A DNA stretch of 64,000 nt from an uncultured Oscillospiraceae bacterium (GTDB lineage: Bacteria > Bacillota > Clostridia > Oscillospirales > Acutalibacteraceae). The DNA is taken from assembly GCA_900545625.1 (NCBI GenBank), contig UQZS01000002.1, positions 1 to 64,000 on the forward strand, given 5' to 3'. The notes beneath the pieces were generated by a model, which saw nothing but the letters and a program-made list of their open reading frames with translations, was not told the DNA's origin and made no database searches. The translations under genes and the position numbers were made by a program. Below, piece by piece: positions 22,936 to 42,385 of this stretch (positions are counted from its first letter, which is position 1; each line of letters begins with the position of its first letter).

Positions 22936-23026
22936 TGGCGGAGAAGGGGAGACTCGAACTCCCGCGCCGGTTGCCCGACCTACGCCCTTAGCAGGGGCGC
23001 CTCGTCACCAACTTGAGTACTTCTCC
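22936..23026 (-). tRNA. tRNA-Ser (anticodon GCU)
   Basis: Minus strand: acceptor GGAGAAG/CTTCTCC, anticodon stem CGCCC-CTGCTAA-GGGCG, long class II variable arm, T-loop GTTCGAGTC, discriminator G and encoded CCA. Reads AGC/AGU codons. Probably co-transcribed with tRNA-Ser(UGA) just upstream. Confidence 0.96.
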
Positions 23027-23119
23027 GAATGGTAACAAACATGGAAATATAAACTTTTGTGCCGCCGTGCACGGCGAACGGTATATGGTACAGATAGAAG
23101 CTCTATCGTTACAGTCGTA

Positions 23120-23208
23120 TGGCGGAGAGAGTGGGATTCGAACCCACGGTACGTTGCCGTACGACGGTTTTCAAGACCGTTCCGTTATGACCGCTTCGGT
23201 ATCTCTCC
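23120..23208 (-). tRNA. tRNA-Ser (anticodon UGA)
   Basis: Minus strand: acceptor GGAGAGA/TCTCTCC, anticodon stem ACGGT-CTTGAAA-ACCGT, long variable arm CGTACGGCAACGTACC, T-loop GTTCGAATC, CCA encoded. Confidence 0.96.
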
Positions 23209-23225
23209 GTGTCGGGACGAAACAT

Positions 23226-23254
23226 ATGATAGCATAGTTTCCCCGTTCTGTCAA
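23226..23254 (-). promoter_or_regulatory. Promoter of the tRNA-Ser(UGA)-tRNA-Ser(GCU) unit
   Basis: Minus strand TTGACA, 17-base spacer, TATCAT, ending 18 bases before the tRNA-Ser(UGA) 5' end. Confidence 0.8.
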
Positions 23255-23368
23255 TGAAAAAATGCGCAACCTTTCATGATTTTCAAGGGGGATTGTATTA
23301 CACAAAAGCGTTGCATTTCAAAGCGATATATGCTACTCTAAAAGCAGAGAGAAAAAGGAGGCGTGCAC

Positions 23369-23710
23369 GTGGATGCTGGATATATGGCGATTGTTTTGCT
23401 GCTCATTTTCGCAATGTACAGCGTATACAATCGACGGGACTATATCGCCGTTCGCCGTGCCGCTGCTTGGAAAGGGAAAGGGAGGCGCGCTGAAATGCAA
23501 ACGCTTGCCAAACAATTTATCGGGAAGGATTGTCTGCTTTATACCTTCAACGGGAATCGCATCGCAGGACGCGTGCTCGAGGTGACCGAGCACGGTCTGC
23601 TTTTGCAGGCAGGGGACACGACGGAGGTTGTGAACCTTGACTTTATCATTCGTCTGCGCGAGCATCCGACGGATAAAAAAGGCAAAAAGAAAAGCGTTGT
23701 TTTGGATTAA
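23369..23710 (+). CDS. Small single-pass membrane protein of unknown function
   Basis: 113 residues from GTG 23369, seven bases after AAAGGAGG (an in-frame GTG at 23363 is too close). One N-terminal membrane helix (GYMAIVLLLIFAMYSVY) is followed by a basic linker (RRDYIAVRRAAAWKGKGRR) and a compact domain starting MQTLAKQFIGKDCLLYTFNG. That domain looks like the small SH3/Lsm-like beta barrels found in uncharacterised Clostridia proteins. An internal ATG at 23494 could give the soluble domain alone, since GGGAGGCG lies before it. Function unknown. Confidence 0.75.
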   Translation: MDAGYMAIVLLLIFAMYSVYNRRDYIAVRRAAAWKGKGRRAEMQTLAKQFIGKDCLLYTFNGNRIAGRVLEVTEHGLLLQAGDTTEVVNLDFIIRLREHPTDKKGKKKSVVLD

Positions 23711-23748
23711 CCGTCGTGGTTCTTAACGCGGATTTTACGCCGCTTTTC

Positions 23749-23777
23749 TTGACCGCGCCGCGGCGGCGTGCTAAAAT
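23749..23777 (+). promoter_or_regulatory. Promoter of mgsA
   Basis: TTGACC, a very GC-rich 17-base spacer (all but one G or C) and TAAAAT, 44 bases before the mgsA start. Confidence 0.7.
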
Positions 23778-23821
23778 GGATTTATACAAAAAGCATCCGA
23801 GGAATGAAGCAAAGGAGCAGT

Positions 23822-24337
23822 ATGGAGTTTTCGTATTCGTATCAGGAAACCGTTATCGGCAAACAGAAAAATATCGCGCTGATCGCGCATGACAACAAAA
23901 AGGAAGAGATCATCGAGTGGTGCTTGAAAAATTCAGAAATCTTAAAGCACCATTTCCTGTTCGGAACAGGTACGACCGCCCGTATGATTGCCGAGCGCAC
24001 GGCGCTGCCCATCCGCGGCTTTAACAGCGGTCCCTTAGGCGGCGACCAGCAGATCGGCGCGCGCATCGTGGACGGCAAGATCGACATCGTGATCTTTTTC
24101 TCCGACCCCTTGACCGCCCAGCCGCACGACCCGGACGTGAAAGCGCTGCTTCGCATCGCGCAGGTGTTTGATATTCCTATTGCGAACAATAAAGCGACGG
24201 CCGATTTCATCATCACTTCGAAGTTTATGAACTCCGAATATCGGCATCGCCTGATCGATTTCAATAAAAGCGTTGAGGAACGCGCCGAGCAGCTTTCCGA
24301 GGAGGAAGCTCGTGACGAAAAGCGGGAACAAGAATAG
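23822..24337 (+). CDS. mgsA: Methylglyoxal synthase
   Basis: Converts dihydroxyacetone phosphate to methylglyoxal and phosphate, a bypass of lower glycolysis. ATG 23822 follows AAAGGAG; the longer frame from 23768 would overlap the promoter. Of 171 residues, the core has IALIAHDNKKEE, the phosphate-binding GTGTTARMI, the SGPLGGDQQIGA loop, and FFSDPLTAQPHDPDVKALLR with the catalytic aspartates. The last 25 residues are a charged coil tail. Monocistronic. Confidence 0.96.
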   Translation: MEFSYSYQETVIGKQKNIALIAHDNKKEEIIEWCLKNSEILKHHFLFGTGTTARMIAERTALPIRGFNSGPLGGDQQIGARIVDGKIDIVIFFSDPLTAQPHDPDVKALLRIAQVFDIPIANNKATADFIITSKFMNSEYRHRLIDFNKSVEERAEQLSEEEARDEKREQE

Positions 24338-24399
24338 TATATGAAATAATACTGCGGCGCACTGTCGGCATAATGTATGTTTGCAAGTAAAATAAAAAA

Positions 24400-24435
24400 G
24401 AACGGCAATTTCTTTTTGAAATTGCCGTTCTTTTT
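24400..24435. terminator. Bidirectional terminator between mgsA and tRNA-Ser(GGA)
   Basis: GAACGGCAATTTC and GAAATTGCCGTTC form a perfect 13-base-pair stem with loop TTTTT; A and T runs lie on both sides. Confidence 0.92.
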
Positions 24436-24528
24436 TGGCGGAGAGCAAGGGATTCGAACCCTCGAAGCCGCGTTGACGGCTTACACGATTTCCAGTCGTG
24501 CTCCTTCGACCAGCTCGGACAACTCTCC
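24436..24528 (-). tRNA. tRNA-Ser (anticodon GGA)
   Basis: Minus strand: acceptor GGAGAGT/GCTCTCC, anticodon stem CACGA-CTGGAAA-TCGTG, long variable arm, T-loop GTTCGAATC, CCA encoded. Reads UCC/UCU. Confidence 0.96.
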
Positions 24529-31646: not shown

Positions 31647-33956
31647 ATGGCAAAACAACCACGCAGAAGGAACAAAACGCGCGCGAAAAAGCGCTCCAAT
31701 GTCCTCACGAAGCATCGCACGGCAGTGACGGTGCTGTTGGCGTGTGCGTTGACCGCACTGTTGACCGTGCTGATCGTCGGGATTTATGTGCTCGCTTTTG
31801 CTGTATCCTATGTCAACGGCGATCCCAAGATCAATTTGGATGAATACCGCCAGAATCAAGACCAGACCACTTTCATTTACGCCTATGACGACAACGATGA
31901 GGTCGTCCAGCTTGCGCGGCTGCACGGTGAGCAGAACCGCGTTTGGGTGACATACAGTGAAAACCCGGAGGAGAGCACGATCCCGCAGAATCTTGCGAAC
32001 GCCTATATCGCGCTGGAGGACAAACGTTTTTACAGTCATAACGGCGTGGACTGGTTCCGCACGCTTTCCGCTATCGTCAAGGATCGCGGTTCCACGGGCG
32101 GTTCGACCATTACCCAGCAGCTCATTAAAAACCTGACCGGGGAAAACAAGCGCACGCTCAACCGCAAATTCTATGAGATCCTCATGGCGCTGAACCTGGA
32201 GAAGAATGTTTCCAAAGAAACCGTGCTCGAGGCGTATATGAACACGGTGTATATGAGCCACGGCTGCTACGGTGTGCAGACGGCTGCAGAGACGTATTTC
32301 GGCAAAAATGTGCAGGACCTGAACCTTGCCGAATGTGCTTCTCTTGCCGCGATTACGCAGTCACCCTCGGCGAACGACCCGTTGCTGCACCCGGATGCCA
32401 ACCGTCGCCGCCAAATGACCTGTTTGAATAACATGCTTGAAGAAGAAATGATCACACAGGAGGAGTACGACGAGGCGGTCGCCTATGAAATGGTGTTCAC
32501 CAACAGCGAGGGCTATGTGCCCTCTGAGGACCTCGCCTCGCAGCAGATCGAAACGGAAAATTCCGTTTGGAGCTATTATGTGGACTATGTGATCCAAAGT
32601 GTGCGGGACGATCTTATGGATCAATACGGCTATTCCCGTTCACAGGCTTCTTCGTTGATCTATTCTGGCGGCCTGCGCATCTATTCCGCTGTAGATCTGG
32701 ATGTGCAGGAGGCGATGGAAAGCGTCTATGTCAACCGAACGGACTTCCCGCGCTACAATAAAAATATTGACGACGCACAATCTGCCATGACCATCATGGA
32801 CTACAGCGGCCGCATCGTCGGCATGGTCGGCGGCGCCGGCGAAAAGACTGGAAACCGCGGGCTGAACCGTGCGGCAAACTCATACCGGCAGCCGGGTTCC
32901 TCTATAAAACCGCTGACGATCTATTCGCCCGCTATGGAAGAAAAATATATTACGTGGAGCACCAAGATTGAGAATTACGGTATCCCGAACTACTATGACG
33001 ACGGCGGATACGGCCCGGTGAACTACGGCAACGATCCCGGTTCGCCCGGTTCCTATGTGACGGTGCAAAAGGCGCTTGCAATTTCCTATAATACCGTGCC
33101 TGCGCAGATCTTACAGGAGATCGGCTTTGATGTAAGCTTTGAATATGCGACGCAGAAATTCCATTTGTCGCACCTTGTGGATCCGACGGACAAAAATACT
33201 TCCTCGCTTGCAGTCGGCGGTACGTATGAGGGCGTCTCCACGCTGGAAATGGCTGCGGCGTTCGCCGTGTTCGGCAACGGGGGCAAGTATTTCGAACCCT
33301 ATTGCTATTACGAGGTCACCAATTCAAGTGGCTCCGAAGTGCTTTTGCGTCATGCCGAAACGGAAGGTGAGCAGGCGATCTCGCAGGATACGGCGGATGT
33401 GATGAACGAGTTACTGCAAACGGTCGTGACTGACCGCGCGGGTCAGGCAACAGCCCGTAATTATGGGTTGGACAATTCTCCGCTGTTTGCAAAAACCGGT
33501 ACGACATCTGAGGACAAAGACCGTTGGTTTGTCGGCGGCACACCATATTATGTGGCGGCGGTCTGGTTTGGCTGTGATACGCCTAAGCAGATCTCCAACT
33601 ATGTATCCGGCAACCCTGCCGGCAGCATATTTGATGCTGTGATGAATCTGATCCACGACGATTTGGAGCGCAAAGACTTTGAAAAATTCTCGCCGATCGT
33701 CGAGCAGCGCACCTACTGTACCGAGACAGGTCTTTTGGCAAGCGACGGCTGCACCGGCCGCGCAACAGGCTGGTATTCCAAAGAAAATCTGCCCGGTACC
33801 TGCACGGCGAGTCATGCTTCGAGTGCGCCTGCTGCGGAAGATAATTCCGGCGGCGATCAGGAGCAGGTAACGCCGGGCGAAACAACTACGGCTGCAACAG
33901 AGACACAGCCCGCTGCGGAGACTACGCAGCCTGCTACTACAGAGTCTGCCGCGTAA
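31647..33956 (+). CDS. Class A penicillin-binding protein (PBP1A family)
   Basis: Bifunctional peptidoglycan glycosyltransferase/transpeptidase, 769 residues. A basic cytosolic tail and one anchor helix (about residues 30-55) come first. The GT51 domain has EDKRFYSHNGVDWFR and GGSTITQQLIKNLT. The transpeptidase domain has SxxK at S418-K421 (PGSSIKP), SYN (ISYNTVPA) and KTG at K616-G618. The last 60 residues are Thr/Ala/Glu-rich low complexity, probably a flexible external tail. It is followed after 19 bases by pyrC and seems to lead the operon. Confidence 0.95.
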   Translation: MAKQPRRRNKTRAKKRSNVLTKHRTAVTVLLACALTALLTVLIVGIYVLAFAVSYVNGDPKINLDEYRQNQDQTTFIYAYDDNDEVVQLARLHGEQNRVWVTYSENPEESTIPQNLANAYIALEDKRFYSHNGVDWFRTLSAIVKDRGSTGGSTITQQLIKNLTGENKRTLNRKFYEILMALNLEKNVSKETVLEAYMNTVYMSHGCYGVQTAAETYFGKNVQDLNLAECASLAAITQSPSANDPLLHPDANRRRQMTCLNNMLEEEMITQEEYDEAVAYEMVFTNSEGYVPSEDLASQQIETENSVWSYYVDYVIQSVRDDLMDQYGYSRSQASSLIYSGGLRIYSAVDLDVQEAMESVYVNRTDFPRYNKNIDDAQSAMTIMDYSGRIVGMVGGAGEKTGNRGLNRAANSYRQPGSSIKPLTIYSPAMEEKYITWSTKIENYGIPNYYDDGGYGPVNYGNDPGSPGSYVTVQKALAISYNTVPAQILQEIGFDVSFEYATQKFHLSHLVDPTDKNTSSLAVGGTYEGVSTLEMAAAFAVFGNGGKYFEPYCYYEVTNSSGSEVLLRHAETEGEQAISQDTADVMNELLQTVVTDRAGQATARNYGLDNSPLFAKTGTTSEDKDRWFVGGTPYYVAAVWFGCDTPKQISNYVSGNPAGSIFDAVMNLIHDDLERKDFEKFSPIVEQRTYCTETGLLASDGCTGRATGWYSKENLPGTCTASHASSAPAAEDNSGGDQEQVTPGETTTAATETQPAAETTQPATTESAA

Positions 33957-33975: not shown

Positions 33976-35259
33976 ATGGCGCAGCTATTGTTTCAAAACG
34001 CACGGGTCGTTGACCCCTCCCAAAACCTGGATGCCGTCTGTGACGTGCTGTGCCGGGACAACCGAATTGTGCAGATCGGGCAAGGCCTTTGTGCGGATTC
34101 TGCAACTGTCATCCATGCTTCGGGGCTGATTTTGGCCCCGGGGCTTGTTGATTTACATGTGCATTTGCGTGATCCCGGCTTTACGGAAAAGGAAGACATT
34201 TTAAGCGGTTGTAAGGCAGCTGCGGCGGGCGGCGTGACAACGCTTTGCGCCATGCCGAACACACGTCCCGCCTGTGATACGCCTGAGACTGTGCAATATG
34301 TTTTGGAGCAGGCAAGGCAGGCTGATGCGCGCGTTTTGCCTGTGGCTGCAATCACAAAGGGCCTTTGCGGCGAGGAATTGACCGATATGGAAGCGCTTAT
34401 GCAAAGCGGTGCCTGTGCATTTTCCGATGACGGCGTACCTGTTGCGACTGCCGCACTTATGGCGCGTGCCATGCAAGAGAGTGCGCGGCTGCACCGTCCG
34501 ATCTTTGCGCATACGGAAGACCGTTCTCTCTCGGCGGGCGGTCTCATCAACGAGGGAAAATGGAGCGCTCGATTTGATGTGGGCGGTGTCCCGAACGCCG
34601 CTGAGGACGCAGGAACTGCACGGGAGATCGCACTTTTGACGAATGCACCGAAAGGCGCGCATCTGCACATATGTCATGTGAGTACTTCGGGCAGCGCCGC
34701 GCTTATAGCGGATGCCAAAGCGAAGGGGCTGTCCATTACGGCGGAGACCTGTCCGCACTATTTTATTTTTGATGAAGATAAATTGGAAACGCGCGATGCG
34801 GATTACCGCATGAACCCGCCTTTGCGCAGTGCACAGGACCGTGGGGCGATCGAGCAGGCGCTTTTGGACGGTACGATCGACGTGATCGCGACCGACCATG
34901 CGCCGCACACGCCAACGGAAAAACAGGACTTTTTAAAAGCGCCAAACGGCGTGATCGGGATGGAAACTTCCTTTTCGGCAAGCTATACGGCGTTGGTCGC
35001 AACGGGCAAACTGTCTCTTTCTGAACTGATCCAAAAGATGTCCTGCCGCCCGGCGGAAATATTGGGGTTCGGTGGCGGGACGTTGCGTATAGGCGAACGC
35101 GCCGACCTGATTTTGATCGATGAAAACGAACGGTGGACGGTAGACATCCATCGTCTGCACGGTAAATCAAGAAACTGTGTGTTCAAAGGCTGTTCCCTGC
35201 AATCCAAAGTAAAGATGACGGTTTTGGATGGCAGGATCGTATATAATGAACTGTTTTAG
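33976..35259 (+). CDS. pyrC: Dihydroorotase
   Basis: Third step of pyrimidine synthesis: cyclises carbamoyl-aspartate to dihydroorotate. 427 residues, class I form. DLHVHLRDPGFTEKED gives the first zinc histidines, HICHVSTSGS and the TAETCPHYF segment further ligands, and IATDHAPHTPTEK the catalytic aspartate. A complete and normal-looking enzyme, in contrast to carA/carB downstream. GAGGAGAG precedes the ATG. Confidence 0.96.
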   Translation: MAQLLFQNARVVDPSQNLDAVCDVLCRDNRIVQIGQGLCADSATVIHASGLILAPGLVDLHVHLRDPGFTEKEDILSGCKAAAAGGVTTLCAMPNTRPACDTPETVQYVLEQARQADARVLPVAAITKGLCGEELTDMEALMQSGACAFSDDGVPVATAALMARAMQESARLHRPIFAHTEDRSLSAGGLINEGKWSARFDVGGVPNAAEDAGTAREIALLTNAPKGAHLHICHVSTSGSAALIADAKAKGLSITAETCPHYFIFDEDKLETRDADYRMNPPLRSAQDRGAIEQALLDGTIDVIATDHAPHTPTEKQDFLKAPNGVIGMETSFSASYTALVATGKLSLSELIQKMSCRPAEILGFGGGTLRIGERADLILIDENERWTVDIHRLHGKSRNCVFKGCSLQSKVKMTVLDGRIVYNELF

Positions 35260-35268
35260 GAGGACATC

Positions 35269-36201
35269 ATGGGGTTTGACAAATTGATCAAGCGAATTCG
35301 TGATATGCAAAATCCAACGGTAGCCGGGCTTGACCCAAAACTCGACTATGTGCCGAGTTTTATATGTGACGAAGCATTCTCGAAGCACAGCGACCCGCTT
35401 GAGGCGGCTGCCGCCGCTTTGCTGACGTTTAACAAGGGTCTGATCGACGCGCTTTGCGATATCGTGCCTGCTGTAAAGCCGCAGTGTGCGTATTATGAAA
35501 TGTATGGCTGGCAGGGTATGCGTGCGCTGTATGAAACGATCGCGTATGCGAAAAAGAAAGGTATGTTTGTCATTACAGACGGCAAGCGAAACGACATTGG
35601 TGCAACGATGCAGGCCTATGCCGCTGCACACCTCGGTACGACGGCTATTAACGGCGAACAGATCGCGGCTTTTGACGCGGATGCGCTGACGGTCAACGGC
35701 TATCTCGGTACAGACGGCATCAAGCCGTTAACCGAGATCTGTGCCGCGCAGGATAAAGGCATTTTTGTCCTTGTCAAAACCTCCAACGCCTCTTCGGGTG
35801 AATTGCAGGACAAATGTATTGGGGATAAAACGGTGTACCGTGTCATGGGGGATATGTGTGAAGCGTGGGGTGAGCCGACACGCGGCGCATATGGGTATTC
35901 TGCCGTCGGCGCGGTCGTAGGCGCTACCTATCCGCAGCAGCTTGCCGAACTGCGCCGGGCGCTGCCGCATACGTTTTTCCTCGTACCCGGTTACGGTGCA
36001 CAGGGCGGCGGGGCAAAAGATGTCGTGCCCGCGTTTGACAAAAACGGCGACGGCGCGATCATCAATTCTTCCCGCGGCATTATGTGCGCCTATCAGAAAA
36101 ACGGCTGTGATGAGCAGGATTACGCCAAAGCCGCACGTGCGGAAGCCTTGCGTATGCGTGATGATATTGCCGCTGCCATCTCGGAAAGCAAAGGGGACTG
36201 A
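35269..36201 (+). CDS. pyrF: Orotidine 5'-phosphate decarboxylase (type 2)
   Basis: Last step to UMP. 310 residues, the longer bacterial type 2 form. AGLDPKLDYVP and the catalytic DGKRNDIGATMQAYA (Lys-Asp pair) are intact, as are VNGYLGTDG and the phosphate-binding VPGYGAQGG. It starts ten bases after pyrC with AGGAGG and ends three bases before carA. Confidence 0.96.
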   Translation: MGFDKLIKRIRDMQNPTVAGLDPKLDYVPSFICDEAFSKHSDPLEAAAAALLTFNKGLIDALCDIVPAVKPQCAYYEMYGWQGMRALYETIAYAKKKGMFVITDGKRNDIGATMQAYAAAHLGTTAINGEQIAAFDADALTVNGYLGTDGIKPLTEICAAQDKGIFVLVKTSNASSGELQDKCIGDKTVYRVMGDMCEAWGEPTRGAYGYSAVGAVVGATYPQQLAELRRALPHTFFLVPGYGAQGGGAKDVVPAFDKNGDGAIINSSRGIMCAYQKNGCDEQDYAKAARAEALRMRDDIAAAISESKGD

Positions 36202-36204
36202 GCT

Positions 36205-37287
36205 ATGAGACGAATTCCGCAGAAAGCGTATCTGCTGCTCGAGGACGGAACACTGTTTGAAGGCCTTTCCATGGGAAAGCAGGGGACTGCTGTCGGCGAG
36301 GTCGTATTTAATACCTGTACAGCGTCCTATACATCGCTTTTGTCCGATCCGACTTATTATGGGCAGATTGTAGCGCAGACCTATCCGTTAGTCGGCAATC
36401 GCGGCGTTTCTGCGCAAAACCGCTCTTCGGATATTATGGCGAATGGGTATATTGTGCGTGAATGGTGCGATGTGACAGCCGAAGGCGAACGTACTTTGGA
36501 TGAATACTTGCGTTCGCGTGGGATCGTCGGGCTTTGCGGCATCGATATGCGCCGTTTGACGCGCGCTTTGCGTGACAAAGGTTATGTCAAAGGCGCGATC
36601 ACAGACAGTTTGGATGACAAAGACGCGCTGCTCGAACACATCCGCGCCTATACCATTTCCGGCGCGGTAGAGGCGATCACGATACGAGAGCCGCAGGCAA
36701 TCAAAGCGGGAACGGAAAAATACCGCGTTTGCGTGATGGATTACGGTTTTCCCCGCGAGATCTTAGAGGGTTTTATTGAACGCGGTTGTTCTCTGGATAT
36801 TTTGCCCGCTTCTTACACCGCCGAGCAGGTGTGCGCGCTGTGTCCCGACGGGATTTTTCTTTCGGACGGTCCGGCCGACCCGGACGATAACCCGGCTTTT
36901 GTGCGGGAGATCACGGAAATGACTAAGCGCGGGGTACCGATCTTTGCCGTAGGTCTCGGGCATCAGATGCTCGCGTTGGCAGTCGGTGCGCAAATTGAAA
37001 AAATGCACCAGGGGCACCGCGGCTCGAACCAGCCCGTGCTGTGTGCGAATACACACCGTTTAATGGTCACAGAGCAAAATCACGGCTATGCCGTGCGGCG
37101 TGAAAGTATTTCACCGGACTTCGCAGAGGTCTTTTTGATGAATGTAAATGACGGTTCCGTGGAGGGGCTCTTTTATCGTGCTTTTCCGGGCTTCAGCGTT
37201 CAATTTACACCAAGCGCAGATCCGGCCAGCAGCACGTCATGGGTATTTGACCGCTTTATACAAATGATGGGGGAGGCGCGCAAATGA
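36205..37287 (+). CDS. carA: CarA-like small subunit without glutaminase triad
   Basis: Homologue of the carbamoyl-phosphate synthetase small subunit, 360 residues of normal length with both CarA_N and GATase-like domains (LLLEDGTLFEG, GEVVFNT, GLCGIDMRRLTRAL, QNHGYAV). The catalytic residues are gone. GICLGHQ is AVGLGHQ, so the nucleophile Cys is Gly250. The HPEASPGP motif is TPSADPAS, so the His is Thr335 and the Glu is Ser337. The oxyanion-loop NGPGDP reads DGPADP. It therefore cannot hydrolyse glutamine in the known way. The frame is intact and shares four bases (ATGA) with carB. Comparison with the canonical sequence is from memory, by eye. Confidence 0.9.
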   Translation: MRRIPQKAYLLLEDGTLFEGLSMGKQGTAVGEVVFNTCTASYTSLLSDPTYYGQIVAQTYPLVGNRGVSAQNRSSDIMANGYIVREWCDVTAEGERTLDEYLRSRGIVGLCGIDMRRLTRALRDKGYVKGAITDSLDDKDALLEHIRAYTISGAVEAITIREPQAIKAGTEKYRVCVMDYGFPREILEGFIERGCSLDILPASYTAEQVCALCPDGIFLSDGPADPDDNPAFVREITEMTKRGVPIFAVGLGHQMLALAVGAQIEKMHQGHRGSNQPVLCANTHRLMVTEQNHGYAVRRESISPDFAEVFLMNVNDGSVEGLFYRAFPGFSVQFTPSADPASSTSWVFDRFIQMMGEARK

Positions 37288-40283
37288 GATCGCAATTTAA
37301 AAAAATCCTCGTGATCGGCGCGGGCCCCGTTGTCGTTGGGCAGTCGAGCGAATTTGACTATGCGGGCGTACAGATGTGCCGCGTGCTGAAAGAAGCAGGG
37401 ATTCAGGTCATTGTGGTGAATTCCAACCCTGCGACTGTCATGACGGAGCATGGTGTTGCGGATACCGTTTACATGGAGCCGCTCAACAGCGAGGTCATAA
37501 AAAAGATCATTGAAATCGAACAGCCCGATGCGATCCTTTCGACGGCGGGCGGTAAAACGGGTCTTGAAATCTGTTTAGAGCTTTCACAAAACGGATATTT
37601 AGAGGAGCACGGCGCGGTCCTTTTGGGCGCGCAGCCCGAAGTCATCAAAAGCATCCATAACGCGCAGGCGCTGCAATCCATGCTGCAGCGTGCGGATGAA
37701 CCGTATTTGCCTGCGGAAATCGCCGGCAGTGAGGCGGAAGCGATCGCTTTTTCTGAGGATGCGGGGTATCCTGTGCGCATACAGGCTGCGTTTTCAGCTG
37801 AAAACGGCGGCAGCACAGTATGCCGGAACTCGGATGAGCTTACTTCGGCGTTTTCAGATTTTGCCGCGCAGTCGCTGGTCGGGCAGGTGCATTTGCAGAA
37901 GTGTGTGGACGCGTATAAAGAAATCGAGCTCGCCGTTGTGCGCGATGCAGACGGCAACGCCATCAGCGTGTGCAGCACGGAAAGCATGGACACGGTCGGC
38001 GTACACTCAGGCGACAGTGTGATCGTCTTGCCCGCGCAGACGTTGACGGATGCCGAACTTATGATGCTGCGCCGTGCCGCGCGGAAGATCGCCGGATATT
38101 TGCAGATTGTCGGCGCTTGTATGGTGCGTTTTGCGCTGCATCCGACGAACGGCACCTATTATGTTTTGAGTGTCGAGCCCGAGCTCAACCGCACGACGGC
38201 GCTCATCTCCAAAGCGACGGGCTATCCGATCGCGGCGGTCTGTGCGCATGTGGCACTCGGCGAGCGGCTTTATGAGATTCCCAATGAATTGACGGGTGTG
38301 ACTACCGCTGCCAATGAACCTGCACTTGACTACTGTGCTGTGCGCGTGCCGAAGTGGTCGTTTGAACAGTTTGGGGACAGTGCCGACCGCCGTCTGGACG
38401 CAAATATGAAAGCGACCGGCGAAGCGTTCGCGATCGGCACGGGCTTTGAGCTTGCACTTTTAAAAGCGATCCGTTCCATCCACCCGAAAACGCAGCATAT
38501 TGGCTTGCCGAAACTGCGGATGTTGTCCGACGAGGAGCTGGAAGCGCGGCTTTGCAGCCCGGATAACGAGCGGATCTTCACCGTATATGAAGCGGTCAAG
38601 CGCGGCTTTTCGCTGTATCGTCTGCATGAGATCACGGGGATCGACCTGTTTTTCCTGTCTAAGCTGCAAAATATCGCCGATGCCGAGGCGGCGCTTCGTA
38701 CAGAGCTTTCGGAAGAAACCTATCTGCGCGCCAAGCACCTTGGCTTTCTCGACAGTGTGATCGCGGCGGTCAGCGGGGAAGAAGAATTGCCGTATCATGC
38801 CGAGCATTCGTTTAACACCGTGGACACCTGCGCCGCCGAATTCGATGTGCGCAAGCCCTATTTTTATTCCGCATGGGATGAGGATAACGAGGCGGCGATT
38901 TTCCTGCGCGAGCATCCGCAGCAAAAGAAAAAGATCCTTGTTGTCGGCGCCGGTCCCACCTCCATCGGGCTGGGCACCGACCGCGACTATGCGGCGTTCC
39001 TTGCGCTGCGCACGCTGAAAGACTTTGGGTTTGAGACCGTCATGCTCAATAACAACCCTGCGGCGAACACAACGGATCTTGCCGCGGCGGATAAGCTGTA
39101 TGTGGATCCGATCACGGCGGAGGATGTTGCGGCTGTCTGCGAAACGGAAAAACCCGACGGTGCGATCCTTGCTTTCGGTGGCGGCGAGGCGGTTCGCAAA
39201 TCCGAGCTGCTGCGCGACATGGGAATTACAGTATACGGCGCAGATGCAGAAGCGCATCGAGTGCTCAAAAACAAAATTGCGTTTTTTGACATTCTGGATA
39301 AGCTCAACATCCGTCATACCAATAACCGTCGCGTGCTCGTCGGCAAAGGCGCTGAGGTAGATGTGCTCACGGACGGGTCGGAATTTCTCATTCCCGGCAT
39401 TTGCGAGCACATCGAAAAGGCGAGCGTGCATTCCGGCGACTCGATTTCCGCTTTTCCCGCTGTGACGCTTTCCGATGCGGTCAAGGACGAAATCGTCGAG
39501 TTTACGGGCCGTCTCGTGCGGGAGCTCGGCTTTAAGGGCTTGCTCAATATTCAATTTGTCATCTATGACAACGCCGTATATGTTTCAAGCGCCAGCGTTG
39601 TCGCCACACGCAATATTCCGTTTTTATCGAAGGCTACGGCGCTGCCGATCATCGAATTTGCAACGCGCCTGATGCTCGGTGAGACGCTTTCGGATATCGG
39701 CATCGGTACGGGACTTTATAAAGAACCGCAGAGATCGTTTGTCCGTGTGCCGGTGTTCAGCTTTGAGCAGCTTACCGGTACGGATGTGCAGCTCGGCGGC
39801 GAAATGCAGTCCACGGGCGAGGTCATCGGCGTCGGTCGGCGCTTTGACGAAGCGCTCTTAAAAGGCTTTATCGCCTCCGGTATGCGGATCAAGCGCACGG
39901 GCGGGGTGCTGATCTCCGTTGCGGATTCCGACAAACCGGCAAGCGCATCGCTTGCCGCCGCCTTCCAAAAACTGGGCTTTAAGGTATATGCGACGTCAAA
40001 CACGGCAAAACTATTGAATGCCAATCACGTAGCTGCGAATGCTGTACGTAAGATCCATGAGGGCTCTCCGAACACGCTGACCCTGATCTTACAAAATCGG
40101 CTGTCTTATCTTGTCTCGACGGCTCAGCCGACGGCGGCGAAAAACGCCGATGAAGTGCGCATCCGCCGCACGGCGCTGCTGCGCCGCATCCCGGTATTGC
40201 CGTCGGTGGAGACCGCGGCGGCGCTCGCATCCTGCCTTGCCGAAAACAGCGCGGCGCAGGAGCTGTATGTGGAAAGCCTGTAA
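37284..40283 (+). CDS. carB: CarB-like large subunit with both ATP-grasp sites degenerate
   Basis: Homologue of the carbamoyl-phosphate synthetase large subunit, 999 residues against about 1,060-1,070 usual. First half: the Arg of the IIRPSF loop is Gln167, and the metal ligands equivalent to E. coli Q285/E299/N301 are Arg282/Ser296/Glu298. Second half: about 55-60 residues with the YPVLVRPSYVLGG loop are missing near residue 676; E841/N843/R845 equivalents are Ser769/Ser771/Val773, though Q757 (Q829) remains. GVHSGDS, SKATG, TGEV motifs and the C-terminal MGS-like regulatory domain (about 865-999, IRRTAL) are kept. It probably pairs with the altered CarA. Residue assignment is by eye. Confidence 0.9.
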   Translation: MRSQFKKILVIGAGPVVVGQSSEFDYAGVQMCRVLKEAGIQVIVVNSNPATVMTEHGVADTVYMEPLNSEVIKKIIEIEQPDAILSTAGGKTGLEICLELSQNGYLEEHGAVLLGAQPEVIKSIHNAQALQSMLQRADEPYLPAEIAGSEAEAIAFSEDAGYPVRIQAAFSAENGGSTVCRNSDELTSAFSDFAAQSLVGQVHLQKCVDAYKEIELAVVRDADGNAISVCSTESMDTVGVHSGDSVIVLPAQTLTDAELMMLRRAARKIAGYLQIVGACMVRFALHPTNGTYYVLSVEPELNRTTALISKATGYPIAAVCAHVALGERLYEIPNELTGVTTAANEPALDYCAVRVPKWSFEQFGDSADRRLDANMKATGEAFAIGTGFELALLKAIRSIHPKTQHIGLPKLRMLSDEELEARLCSPDNERIFTVYEAVKRGFSLYRLHEITGIDLFFLSKLQNIADAEAALRTELSEETYLRAKHLGFLDSVIAAVSGEEELPYHAEHSFNTVDTCAAEFDVRKPYFYSAWDEDNEAAIFLREHPQQKKKILVVGAGPTSIGLGTDRDYAAFLALRTLKDFGFETVMLNNNPAANTTDLAAADKLYVDPITAEDVAAVCETEKPDGAILAFGGGEAVRKSELLRDMGITVYGADAEAHRVLKNKIAFFDILDKLNIRHTNNRRVLVGKGAEVDVLTDGSEFLIPGICEHIEKASVHSGDSISAFPAVTLSDAVKDEIVEFTGRLVRELGFKGLLNIQFVIYDNAVYVSSASVVATRNIPFLSKATALPIIEFATRLMLGETLSDIGIGTGLYKEPQRSFVRVPVFSFEQLTGTDVQLGGEMQSTGEVIGVGRRFDEALLKGFIASGMRIKRTGGVLISVADSDKPASASLAAAFQKLGFKVYATSNTAKLLNANHVAANAVRKIHEGSPNTLTLILQNRLSYLVSTAQPTAAKNADEVRIRRTALLRRIPVLPSVETAAALASCLAENSAAQELYVESL

Positions 40284-40306: not shown

Positions 40307-41074
40307 ATGCTGCAAGCTGACTTTACGATCCAACGCAAAGATAAACTGAATGCAACGACCTATGCGTTTACGGTAGATTGTCCGAAATTGGCTGAAGAGA
40401 GCTGGTGCGGACGGTTCGTGCATATCCGCTGCGGCGAAAAGCCCTTGCGCCGGCCGATCTCCATTTGCGAGATCGATAAAGAGAATGGTACGCTCACCTT
40501 GGTGTTTGAAGTACGCGGGGAAGGCACCGAGTGGCTTGCCTCCCGAAAAGAGGGAGATGTCATCAATATTCTCGGCCCTTTGGGCAACGGCTTTTTCCCC
40601 GACCGGGAGAAATCCGCGATCTTTGTCGGCGGCGGCATCGGTTGTCCGCCCATGCTCGGTGCGGTGCAGGATTACGGCAAAAATGCTGAGGCAATTCTCG
40701 GATTTCGTTCCGAAGCACAGGTTATTTTGCTGGATAAATTTAAAAGCGCCTGCCGGCACGTTGCCGTCACGACAGATGATGGCTCGTTCGGAACCAAAGG
40801 GTTTGTAACAGATATTTTAAAAGAGCGGCTGGAGGCGCTTCCCGACGCAGTCGTGTATGCGTGCGGGCCGATGCCGATGCTCAAGAACGTTGCAGCGCTT
40901 TGCGAAGCCAAAAACGTACAGTGCTATGTTTCTCTGGAGCAGCGTATGGGCTGCGGGGTAGGCGCGTGCCTTGTGTGCGCTTGTAAAACGCATGACGCAG
41001 ACGGCGAGCATATGCGCCACGTCTGTAAAAACGGCCCGGTATTTGACGCGAGGGAGGTCGATTTCAATGGCTGA
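40307..41074 (+). CDS. pyrK: Dihydroorotate dehydrogenase B, electron transfer subunit
   Basis: FAD and [2Fe-2S] subunit that passes electrons from dihydroorotate, via PyrD, to NAD. 255 residues: FAD-binding RRPISICEID, the NAD-binding GGGIGCPPML, and a C-terminal cluster motif MGCGVGACLVCACKT with a final HVCKNG. GAGAGG precedes the ATG. Pairs with pyrD, whose start overlaps its end by eight bases. Confidence 0.95.
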   Translation: MLQADFTIQRKDKLNATTYAFTVDCPKLAEESWCGRFVHIRCGEKPLRRPISICEIDKENGTLTLVFEVRGEGTEWLASRKEGDVINILGPLGNGFFPDREKSAIFVGGGIGCPPMLGAVQDYGKNAEAILGFRSEAQVILLDKFKSACRHVAVTTDDGSFGTKGFVTDILKERLEALPDAVVYACGPMPMLKNVAALCEAKNVQCYVSLEQRMGCGVGACLVCACKTHDADGEHMRHVCKNGPVFDAREVDFNG

Positions 41075-41978
41075 TATGCGCGTAAATCTTGCGGGCGTGA
41101 CGCTGAAAAATCCTGTAATCACGGGAAGCGGTACGTTCGGTTTCGGCCGCGAATATGCGCGGCTTTATGATATATCACGGCTCGGCGGCATTTCCTGTAA
41201 AGGCACAACGCTGCATGAACGGCTCGGCAATCCCGCGCCGCGCATTGCAGAAACGCCTGCGGGCATGCTCAATTCCGTCGGGCTGCAAAACCCCGGCGTG
41301 GATGCCTTCCTGCAAGACGACCTGCCGTATCTCGCGTCCCAAGACGTCGTGGTGATCGCGAATGTAGCGGGCAGCACGGAGGACGAATACGCGGAGACGA
41401 TCCGCCGCTTGCAGGGCAGCGCGGTGGACATCATTGAAGTTAACATTTCCTGCCCGAACGTCAAGGCGGGCGGTGTTTCGTTCGGCACGAGCCCGCAGGC
41501 GGTTGAGCGCATCACAAAGCTGTGCAAATCGGTTTCTGACAAGCCGATCATGATGAAGCTGACGCCGAATGTAACGGATATTGCGGAAATCGCCGCCGCA
41601 GCGGAAGCAGGCGGTGCGGACGCGATCTCTTTGATCAATACGCTGACGGGTATGCGGATCGACATAAATTCCCGCAGACCCATTTTACGCAACAATACCG
41701 GCGGGCTTTCGGGTGCTGCGGTGTTCCCCGTGGCGCTTCGCATGGTTTGGCAGGCGGCAAACCGCGTCAAGATCCCCGTAGTTGGCATGGGCGGCATCAC
41801 CAAGTGGCAGGATGCCGTTGAGATGCTGCTGGCGGGCGCGTGCGCGGTGCAGATCGGTGCCGCGAACTTTACGGACGCGTATATTCCGCTCAAAGTGATC
41901 GCGGGCATCGAAGAATATTTGGACGCCAAAGGCGAAAACAGCGTTTCCGATATTGTCGGGACGGTACAGCCATGGTGA
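41067..41978 (+). CDS. pyrD: Dihydroorotate dehydrogenase B, catalytic subunit
   Basis: FMN enzyme oxidising dihydroorotate to orotate, class 1B. 303 residues from ATG 41067, with GGAGGTCG upstream. ITGSGTFGFGREY binds FMN phosphate, NISCPNVKAGGV holds the catalytic cysteine, LTPNVTDI and GMGGITKWQDAVEML close the barrel. It overlaps pyrK and ruvX by a few bases, so the set is translationally coupled. The pyr genes missing from the window are pyrB and pyrE. Confidence 0.96.
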   Translation: MADMRVNLAGVTLKNPVITGSGTFGFGREYARLYDISRLGGISCKGTTLHERLGNPAPRIAETPAGMLNSVGLQNPGVDAFLQDDLPYLASQDVVVIANVAGSTEDEYAETIRRLQGSAVDIIEVNISCPNVKAGGVSFGTSPQAVERITKLCKSVSDKPIMMKLTPNVTDIAEIAAAAEAGGADAISLINTLTGMRIDINSRRPILRNNTGGLSGAAVFPVALRMVWQAANRVKIPVVGMGGITKWQDAVEMLLAGACAVQIGAANFTDAYIPLKVIAGIEEYLDAKGENSVSDIVGTVQPW

Positions 41979-42385
41979 TCTTGGCAGTCGATTACGGCGA
42001 TGCGCGCACGGGGCTTGCCGTTTGTGACGCCATGGAAATGCTCGCGTCACCCGTAACGGTATTGCATGAGACAGATCCGCAAGCGCTTGCTATACGCATC
42101 GCCGAAATCGCACAAGAACGCGAAGCGCAAAAAATTGTCGTGGGCCTTCCGAAGAACATGGACGGCACAGAGGGCTTTCGCGCCCAAAGCTGCCGTGCGT
42201 TTGCAAAGCAGCTTCATGAACAGTGTGCGCTTCCCATAGATTTTCAGGATGAGCGGCTGACGACTGTTGCCGCACATCGCGCGCTCAATGTCACAAACAC
42301 CCGCGGCAAAAAGCGGAAAGCGGTGATCGACGCAGTTTCCGCCGTTATGATTTTGGAAGACTATTTGCGCACCGCGAAATCATAA
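41972..42385 (+). CDS. ruvX: RuvX/YqgF family RNase H-fold nuclease
   Basis: 137 residues. RuvX/YqgF acts in 16S rRNA 5'-end maturation and was long named a Holliday junction resolvase. The acidic residues are in LAVDYGDARTGLAV, DERLTTVAA and DAVSAVMILEDYL; VVGLPKNMDGTEG is a family motif. It starts inside the pyrD end and closes the operon before the hairpin at 42412. Confidence 0.95.
   Translation: MVILAVDYGDARTGLAVCDAMEMLASPVTVLHETDPQALAIRIAEIAQEREAQKIVVGLPKNMDGTEGFRAQSCRAFAKQLHEQCALPIDFQDERLTTVAAHRALNVTNTRGKKRKAVIDAVSAVMILEDYLRTAKS

Follow-up and report, generated by a model that had tools for sequence, protein, structure and literature searches.

Catalytic residues of a carA-carB pair in a pyr operon

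The 64,000-nucleotide stretch of contig UQZS01000002.1 analysed here (the window), from an uncultured Oscillospiraceae bacterium, carries a pyr gene block that includes homologues of carA and carB, the genes for the two subunits of carbamoyl-phosphate synthetase (CPSase). An asterisk marks these two genes and their products, whose catalytic residues have been lost. CarB* was aligned to E. coli CarB (L068), and residues are given below as the E. coli position followed by the window position. The match extends along the full length of the protein, and the 999 open codons reported by a sequence-only reading of this DNA form one uninterrupted frame. That reading had also claimed that both ATP-grasp active sites are dismantled, and its assignments for Q285/E299/N301, R169 and E841/N843/R845 all agree with the alignment. 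In the carboxyphosphate half, the catalytic residues R129, R169, Q285, E299, N301 and R303 have become A127, Q167, R282, S296, E298 and E300, and G175/G176 have become E173/N174; we take E299 and N301 to be metal ligands. In the carbamoyl-phosphate half, R571, E761, E841, N843 and R845 are replaced by S560, G689, S769, S771 and V773, R675 by K664 and D753 by R682, while R715 and G721/G722 are deleted together with the lid. The block missing from the second half, which that reading had put at about 55-60 residues near residue 676 and taken to include the Gly-rich ATP loop, measures 60 residues (E. coli 693-752); its junction lies between window residues 681 and 682. E215 (E213), G241, H243 and Q829 are retained. 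Residue roles are stated as background; those of T977, K993, S948 and T1042 in the uridine monophosphate (UMP) and ornithine responses, and the domain limits, follow PMC6245113.

The four-part CarB fold, with two ATP-grasp halves, an oligomerisation domain and an MGS domain, is present apart from the second lid. The C-terminal MGS-like domain is as recognisable as had been stated (Pfam PF02142, 53.9 bits against a cut-off of 24.1). The protein falls below the cut-off of TIGR01369 (930.8 bits; cut-off 1027) but passes that of PRK05294 (942.4; cut-off 599), so it can still be named CarB automatically. An AlphaFold2 model shows the full CarB architecture (predicted local distance difference test score 90.2, predicted template modelling (TM) score 0.90), and its best PDB matches by Foldseek are E. 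coli CPSase chains, with TM scores of 0.91-0.92 over the model. Since the 89 alignment rows behind the model include catalytic relatives, it shows that the sequence is compatible with the CarB fold but does not prove that fold.

CarA* has likewise lost the Cys-His-Glu triad, as the sequence-only reading held, with Gly, Thr and Ser at C269, H353 and E355 and an additional S47 to Thr change. Both CarA Pfam domains are found and the score cut-offs of the CarA models are exceeded. Conservation is higher in the N-terminal half of CarA* (0.729) than in the amidotransferase half (0.628; 14 sequences), the reverse of catalytic CarA (0.491 and 0.540; 17 sequences); this comparison covered distinct, complete rows other than L080, L085 and the triad-less CarAs of catalytic pairs. 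Judged by its residues, the CarA*B* pair is unable to make carbamoyl phosphate.

Table 1. Features of the carA*-carB* locus in window coordinates
Feature	Position	Strand	Basis or remark
carB*, non-catalytic CarB homologue, 999 residues	37284..40283	+	Open frame, Pfam domains, residue alignment
carA*, non-catalytic CarA homologue, 360 residues	36205..37287	+	Overlaps carB* by 4 nucleotides; triad C269G, H353T, E355S
Junction of the 60-residue deletion (second ATP-grasp lid, E. coli 693-752), residues 681/682	39324..39329	+	Alignment
MGS effector-domain region, about residues 867-999 of carB*	39882..40280	+	Pfam, alignment
pyrC (dihydroorotase), same gene block	33976..35259	+	Provisional name
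pyrF (orotidine monophosphate decarboxylase)	35269..36201	+	Provisional name
pyrK	40307..41074	+	Provisional name
pyrD, start chosen for dN/dS comparison	41067..41978	+	Provisional name
Penicillin-binding protein gene (PBP1A-like), upstream neighbour	31647..33956	+	Provisional name
Downstream ruvX/yqgF-like gene, its start taken from the frame listed at 41840	41972..42385	+	Provisional name

The window thus has the order PBP1A-like gene, pyrC-pyrF-carA*-carB*-pyrK-pyrD, ruvX-like gene. As far as contigs and frame tiling show, the same order, from PBP1A to ruvX, is found in clade 1 (genus g1), G302 (g100), G262 (g182, the genome of L080) and G300 and G174 (g95); the PBP1A-like gene also lies upstream in the related loci whose contigs extend that far. 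The carA*B* pair stands between pyrF and pyrK in four out of four genera where the neighbourhood is visible. An Rfam search of the window at gathering scores returned no pyr leader RNA, its only matches being three tRNA genes at 22939-24528 on the minus strand.

Distribution, common origin and selection

The hosts of the pair form a group of uncultured Clostridia, some of them known from chicken gut. Matches were obtained in 28 of 30 relatives searched, and nine of these encode a full-length CarB that is non-catalytic by its residues (below, dead), 989-999 residues long, 48-96% identical to CarB* and free of stops. Two of the nine, the clade-2 members G018 and G014, retain more of the first half. 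In a tenth relative (G009) a related frame begins but is cut by the contig end; its neighbour is a CarA* without the triad. All ten also carry a catalytic-type CarB, which is cut by contig ends in G004 and G015.

Eighteen loci came from a scan of named genomes: 12 at 63-96% identity, including Candidatus Fimenecus, uncultured Clostridia and Ruminococcaceae UBA7212, one dead locus at 44% (L080) and five other CarBs, with residues tabulated for the loci other than L075 and L085. Protein searches, each taken to its best 120 of about 8,000 matches, led to a residue table of 274 CarBs. It contains 84 database proteins, the window's included, whose second-half residues are lost; only part of the 84 have lost the first half as well. 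When 398 genomes of the family were surveyed at E <= 1e-200, 14 matched, of which nine are dead by residues (G001, G008, G481, G302, G262, G359, G300, G174 and G171) and five have a CarB of ordinary length. Residue-level screening covered some of the genomes without a reported dead copy, and this survey missed lid-keeping forms later found in G167 and G295. Among the matches listed for an order-wide sample of 147 genomes, an unbroken one occurred in G001 only. Carriers belong to eight genera (g1, g88, g92, g95, g100, g140, g182 and g203), g203 by a fragment only. The sequence-only reading had allowed that catalytic orthologues in close relatives would make this a strain-level artefact; the close orthologues proved to be non-catalytic by residues as well.

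A quick tree without bootstrap was built from 60 of the 274 rows (12 rows, of which 11 are dead copies, drew letter-composition warnings). It places all 42 dead representatives in a single clade with a stem of 0.37 and a Shimodaira-Hasegawa-like approximate likelihood ratio test (SH-aLRT) support of 100, so independent decay in many lineages is not supported. The clade is nested within the CarBs of the order and adjoins the catalytic-type protein P0039. Its least decayed members are forms of 1051-1056 residues in which the lid is present and second-half residues are gone (P0036 and P0160 types). Lid-less forms with most first-half residues are intermediate: P0126 and P0127 retain nine of 11 checked, the changes being R129 to Thr and N301 to Asp. 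The window's clade has neither the lid nor these residues. Decay has gone further in the second half than in the first in nearly all members, P0009 (the same as L074) being an exception, and the lid persists in 16 of the 84 dead proteins that already lack second-half residues, which suggests that residue loss preceded lid deletion. This graded series is a record of a double-ATP-grasp enzyme turning into a pseudoenzyme.

Ratios of nonsynonymous to synonymous substitution (dN/dS, Nei-Gojobori) gave no sign of the relaxed selection that the sequence-only reading had named as evidence against a changed role. Between the window and its near relatives L069, L070 and L071, carB* has values of 0.057, 0.050 and 0.050 and carA* of 0.072, 0.054 and 0.052, compared with 0.084-0.105 for pyrC and 0.020-0.035 for pyrD. 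The carB* value is 0.063 for L069-L070 and 0.047-0.087 in three other pairs, and the clade-2 pair G018-G014 has 0.087 for carB* and 0.071 for carA*. Per-domain values against the three near relatives were too noisy to separate the domains (MGS 0.038-0.078, others 0.037-0.081). Between G001 and G013, carB* is 89.2% identical, pyrC 86.7%, PBP1A 90.0% and catalytic carB 97.9%; carB* thus diverges about five times faster than its catalytic counterpart (10.8% against 2.1%). By these comparisons, the constraint on carB* resembles that on neighbouring genes and is weaker than that on the catalytic copy.

The same losses in orthologues, together with the dN/dS values, rule out a pseudogene or an assembly artefact. 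The homologue has lost catalytic residues and evolves under purifying selection, as expected of a regulatory pseudoenzyme, and carA*B* has been retained by selection for a non-catalytic job. That this conserved pseudo-CPSase is real, widely conserved and under selection is strongly supported.

The MGS domain and the catalytic companion

Domain conservation was compared between 50 of 105 dead rows and 68 of 169 catalytic rows, both thinned at 85% identity, the catalytic set being drawn from rows other than E. coli and the locus rows. The MGS domain is among the least conserved parts of active CarBs, with a ratio of MGS conservation to that of the rest of 0.749, whereas the ratio is 1.067 in the 50 dead representatives and 1.146 in 17 from clade 1. 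Across 300 random catalytic subsets of 17 it reached at most 0.820; small catalytic sets from a single genus were higher (0.881, n=8; 0.984, n=10), yet below the dead sets. Divergence within the same genomes behaves alike: MGS/rest is 0.94 for carB* and 1.80 for the catalytic copy over 12 genomes, 0.77 and 2.13 over five clade-1 genomes, and 0.74 and 1.74 over four others (12 of 14 genomes; the catalytic copy is incomplete in G004 and G300).

By group, MGS/rest divergence is 0.71 in clade 1 (28 rows), 0.45 in the lid-keeping P0036 type (8 rows) and 0.78 in a 21-row clade, all of which keep the loop around K993; in clade 2 (9 rows), in which that loop is deleted, it is 1.05. Conservation peaks in the MGS domain in the three loop-keeping groups but not in clade 2; over the dead set as a whole, this domain is on a par with the first pre-ATP domain (0.556 and 0.557). 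Clade 1 has 38 invariant sites that vary among catalytic CarBs, and 18 of them lie in the MGS domain (hypergeometric P = 2e-7 over all columns, 2e-4 over columns variable in catalytic CarBs). The shift of constraint to the MGS domain is relative, not absolute.

Passages of PMC6245113 describe T977 and K993 of E. coli CPSase as crucial for UMP inhibition and binding, S948 as serving the response to UMP and inosine monophosphate (IMP), and T1042 as serving ornithine activation. By alignment, the UMP-site residues S948, K954, T974, T977 and K993 all have equivalents in CarB* (S878, K884, T904, T907 and K923), which would leave a putative UMP site intact. K954, T974 and T977 are retained in 84 of 84 dead proteins and K993 in 70, the 14 proteins without it forming one subclade, clade 2. 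At the position of the ornithine residue T1042, all 17 clade-1 representatives have Pro, which is P973 in the window. The earlier proposal that the complex changed role while keeping its regulatory domain is supported by the constraint shift and by the conserved UMP-site residues. Its further suggestion, a UMP-sensing regulator of the pyr enzymes, is still an inference, so that the proposal as a whole is supported in part.

The exception is clade 2 (G018, G014 and G481), where pyrC, pyrF, pyrK and pyrD are absent beside carA*B*. In G018 and G481 the upstream neighbour is PBP1A, which the G014 contig is too short to reach; on the downstream side, G481 has a ruvX-like frame, while G018 and G014 have frames of 137-138 residues in the corresponding position. 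G018 has a separate pyr block (L162) with pyrC, pyrK and pyrD matches together with pyrB and PyrI matches. Since clade 2 keeps carA*B* with neither the UMP loop nor these neighbours, UMP sensing plus binding to PyrC, PyrF, PyrK or PyrD cannot fully explain the pair in every lineage. Every PyrI match scored under the curated cut-off; such matches were found in four of four clade-2-like genomes (G009, where partial, G014, G018 and G481) and in five of five non-carriers of the same genus. No PyrI match was found in seven clade-1 genomes or in 11 other carriers, 18 genomes outside clade 2 of which 17 show the K993 loop intact; of five further non-carriers, four gave no PyrI match and G375 a marginal one. 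PyrR scored over its cut-off in one of 13 carriers and two of two non-carriers tested, with weaker matches below the cut-off in some other carriers; G007 has both PyrR and carB*.

A catalytic-type CarB of a single lineage accompanies the dead copy in 11 of 11 distinct carrier genomes tested; it shares 80-100% identity with the G001 protein and is partial in G300. These genomes are relatives of the window's genome, left from 13 handles after one duplicate and one non-carrier. Residues of this CarB were read for seven of the 11 genomes and proved intact, G300 having some unread stretches, so carrier relatives appear to encode an active paralogue, about 40% identical to carB*. Among the matches listed from the 398-genome sample, 19 genomes have this companion lineage at 78% identity or more, and 14 of them carry the dead copy, two as fragments. 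In two genomes of the same genus that lack the dead pair (L061 in G016, L056 in G002), a catalytic-type carB sits in the pyr block with no carA adjoining.

The companion CarA itself varies. It carries H353Y in G302, and triad-less CarAs lie beside catalytic-type CarBs in G018 (L046, G/I/D), G014 (L047, G/I/D), G359 (L159, G/Y/D), G021 (L066, R/E/D) and G026 (L067, D/Y/D), suggesting ammonia-dependent CPSases in these Clostridia. Between G018 and G014 the companion CarA evolves faster (dN/dS 0.167) than the dead CarA* (0.071). CarA* shares the loss of the CarA Cys with ammonia-dependent enzymes of the CPSase I type, but CPS1 keeps both ATP-grasp sites, whereas carB* lacks both; the CarAs of the catalytic pairs in G018, G014 and G359 are the closer parallel.

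Candidate roles and known parallels

We favour the reading that CarA*B* is a non-catalytic, nucleotide-sensing regulatory complex of pyrimidine synthesis that would act like trypanosomatid prozyme, with catalytic CarAB as its likeliest target, and give it a probability of about 0.4. The MGS domain of CarB* would read a nucleotide, probably UMP, as site conservation and the constraint shift suggest, and the complex would pass the signal to pyrimidine synthesis by binding another enzyme, most likely the catalytic CarAB encoded elsewhere in the same genome. According to passages of PMC6245113, CPSases pair via their MGS domains, oligomerisation domains join the pairs into tetramers, and UMP leaves the E. 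coli enzyme as an unpaired heterodimer. Given this MGS pairing and the UMP-induced heterodimer, mixed assemblies of CarAB and CarA*B* could tie carbamoyl-phosphate output to the level of UMP, much as prozyme does for S-adenosylmethionine decarboxylase (AdoMetDC). We infer the effector, the identity of the nucleotide, the partner and the direction of control. A fuller evolutionary account is more tentative: a CarA-CarB complex made redundant by a second CPSase would have lost its active sites and become a dedicated nucleotide receptor, governing pyrimidine synthesis in trans in Clostridia mostly without PyrR and PyrI. In one branch a PyrBI-bearing operon would have replaced the native pyr genes, and the receptor there would have lost its nucleotide loop.

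Several observations weigh against a regulatory complex of this kind. Nucleotide sensing cannot be universal, since the K993 loop is deleted in clade 2, and the PyrI contrast of that clade is one evolutionary event; PyrI is likewise missing from four non-carriers that have the same catalytic CarB. No dead copy was found in five of the 19 genomes with the companion lineage. In five clade-1 genomes, absolute MGS conservation is higher in the catalytic copy (0.858) than in carB* (0.767), and L076-L086 gives a carB* dN/dS of 0.100 (pyrC 0.131, pyrK 0.148). In G359 (g182) the pyr block has carB* between pyrF and pyrK but no carA* (L152, 3896-7874), so CarA* can be lost while CarB* stays. A passage of PMC6245113 also reports that oligomerisation as such has no effect on the regulation of E. 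coli CPSase, which weakens control by mixed oligomers.

That last report shifts some weight from the regulatory complex to the second likeliest reading, a scaffold, in which CarA*B* would hold PyrC, PyrB and PyrK/PyrD together or stabilise one of them, with nucleotide binding secondary. The constant position between pyrF and pyrK in four genera and the conserved N-terminal part of CarA* fit a scaffold, as does the inactive dihydroorotase homologue pDHO, which a passage of PMC7053772 describes as needed for aspartate transcarbamoylase (ATCase) activity. It is made doubtful by clade 2, whose locus still has carA*B* although pyrC, pyrF, pyrK and pyrD are lost from it, and by the loop-keeping groups, where conservation is highest in the MGS domain and not in the oligomerisation domain.

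New chemistry, in which the altered first ATP-grasp site (Q285R, with E215, G241 and H243 kept) would bind or act on a new ligand and the less decayed members, with most first-half residues kept, might still be bicarbonate-dependent ATPases, appears improbable. E215 is kept in 81 of 84 proteins, H243 in 46 of 50 representatives and Q285R in 16 of 17 from clade 1, and the first half of P0126 and P0127 is largely preserved. However, the presumed metal ligands E299 and N301 are lost in the window, the E299 replacement is not constant within the clade, and in each of the three loop-keeping groups conservation of the first ATP-grasp domain is lower than that of the MGS domain. The scarcity of PyrR among carriers and the absence of an Rfam pyr leader from the window would suit a transcriptional or RNA-level regulator of the pyr genes that reads UMP in place of PyrR, but Pfam found no DNA- or RNA-binding domain, the AlphaFold2 model is a plain CarB and PyrR coexists with carB* in G007, which leaves this a poor candidate. 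Slow decay of an inactive gene, kept only since frameshifts would be polar on pyrK/pyrD, could draw on the redundancy with the catalytic-type copy and on the fivefold faster divergence of carB*, and is very unlikely given dN/dS of 0.05-0.10, carriers in eight genera with pairs down to 40% identity and full-length matches without stops, domain-specific constraint, and the retention of carA*B* in clade 2 without downstream pyr genes.

No description of a conserved dead CPSase was found among the papers listed in the literature searches. Compared with canonical CarA-CarB (E. coli 1JDB/1CE8; PRK05294, TIGR01369), CarA*B* has the same domain order, predicted fold, paired genes, pyr-operon position and MGS effector residues, but its ATP-grasp sites and glutaminase triad are dismantled, its second lid is deleted and it scores below the TIGR01369 cut-off. 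Dead homologues in the pyrimidine pathway are already known for dihydroorotase: passages of PMC7053772 describe pDHO (Pseudomonas ATCase, yeast-type Ura2) as a non-catalytic partner that can control or stabilise an active enzyme. CarA*B* differs in concerning another enzyme and in having two subunits dead together, and its partner is hypothetical. PMC5201418 and PMC3663545 likewise describe dead paralogues that coexist with active ones and can control or stabilise them, namely prozyme (AdoMetDC) and the dead paralogue of deoxyhypusine synthase (DHS); the dead-active complex is proven there and hypothetical for CarA*B*, whose paralogues are about 40% identical. CarA*B* may be a further member of the regulatory pseudoenzymes, one in which the sensing domain is favoured. 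A CPSase stripped of catalysis but still carrying its effector domain would allow allosteric sensing to be studied apart from catalysis.

The dead CarBs are annotated as ordinary CPSases (for example P0030, P0040, P0126 and P0141), and metabolic models built on annotation would therefore credit these operons with an enzyme that is absent from them. Other departures from the CarB plan were also seen. P0069, P0095, P0099 and others, of about 1346 residues, carry a precomputed diaminopimelate (DAP) epimerase domain (PF01678) and are apparently CarB fusions; frames of 1340-1370 residues also occur among the genome-search matches, the DAP-epimerase status having been read only for the database proteins of about 1346 residues. 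In Periweissella beninensis (L085), a triad-less CarA lies next to an 830-residue CarB-like frame, possibly an unrelated degenerate carAB.

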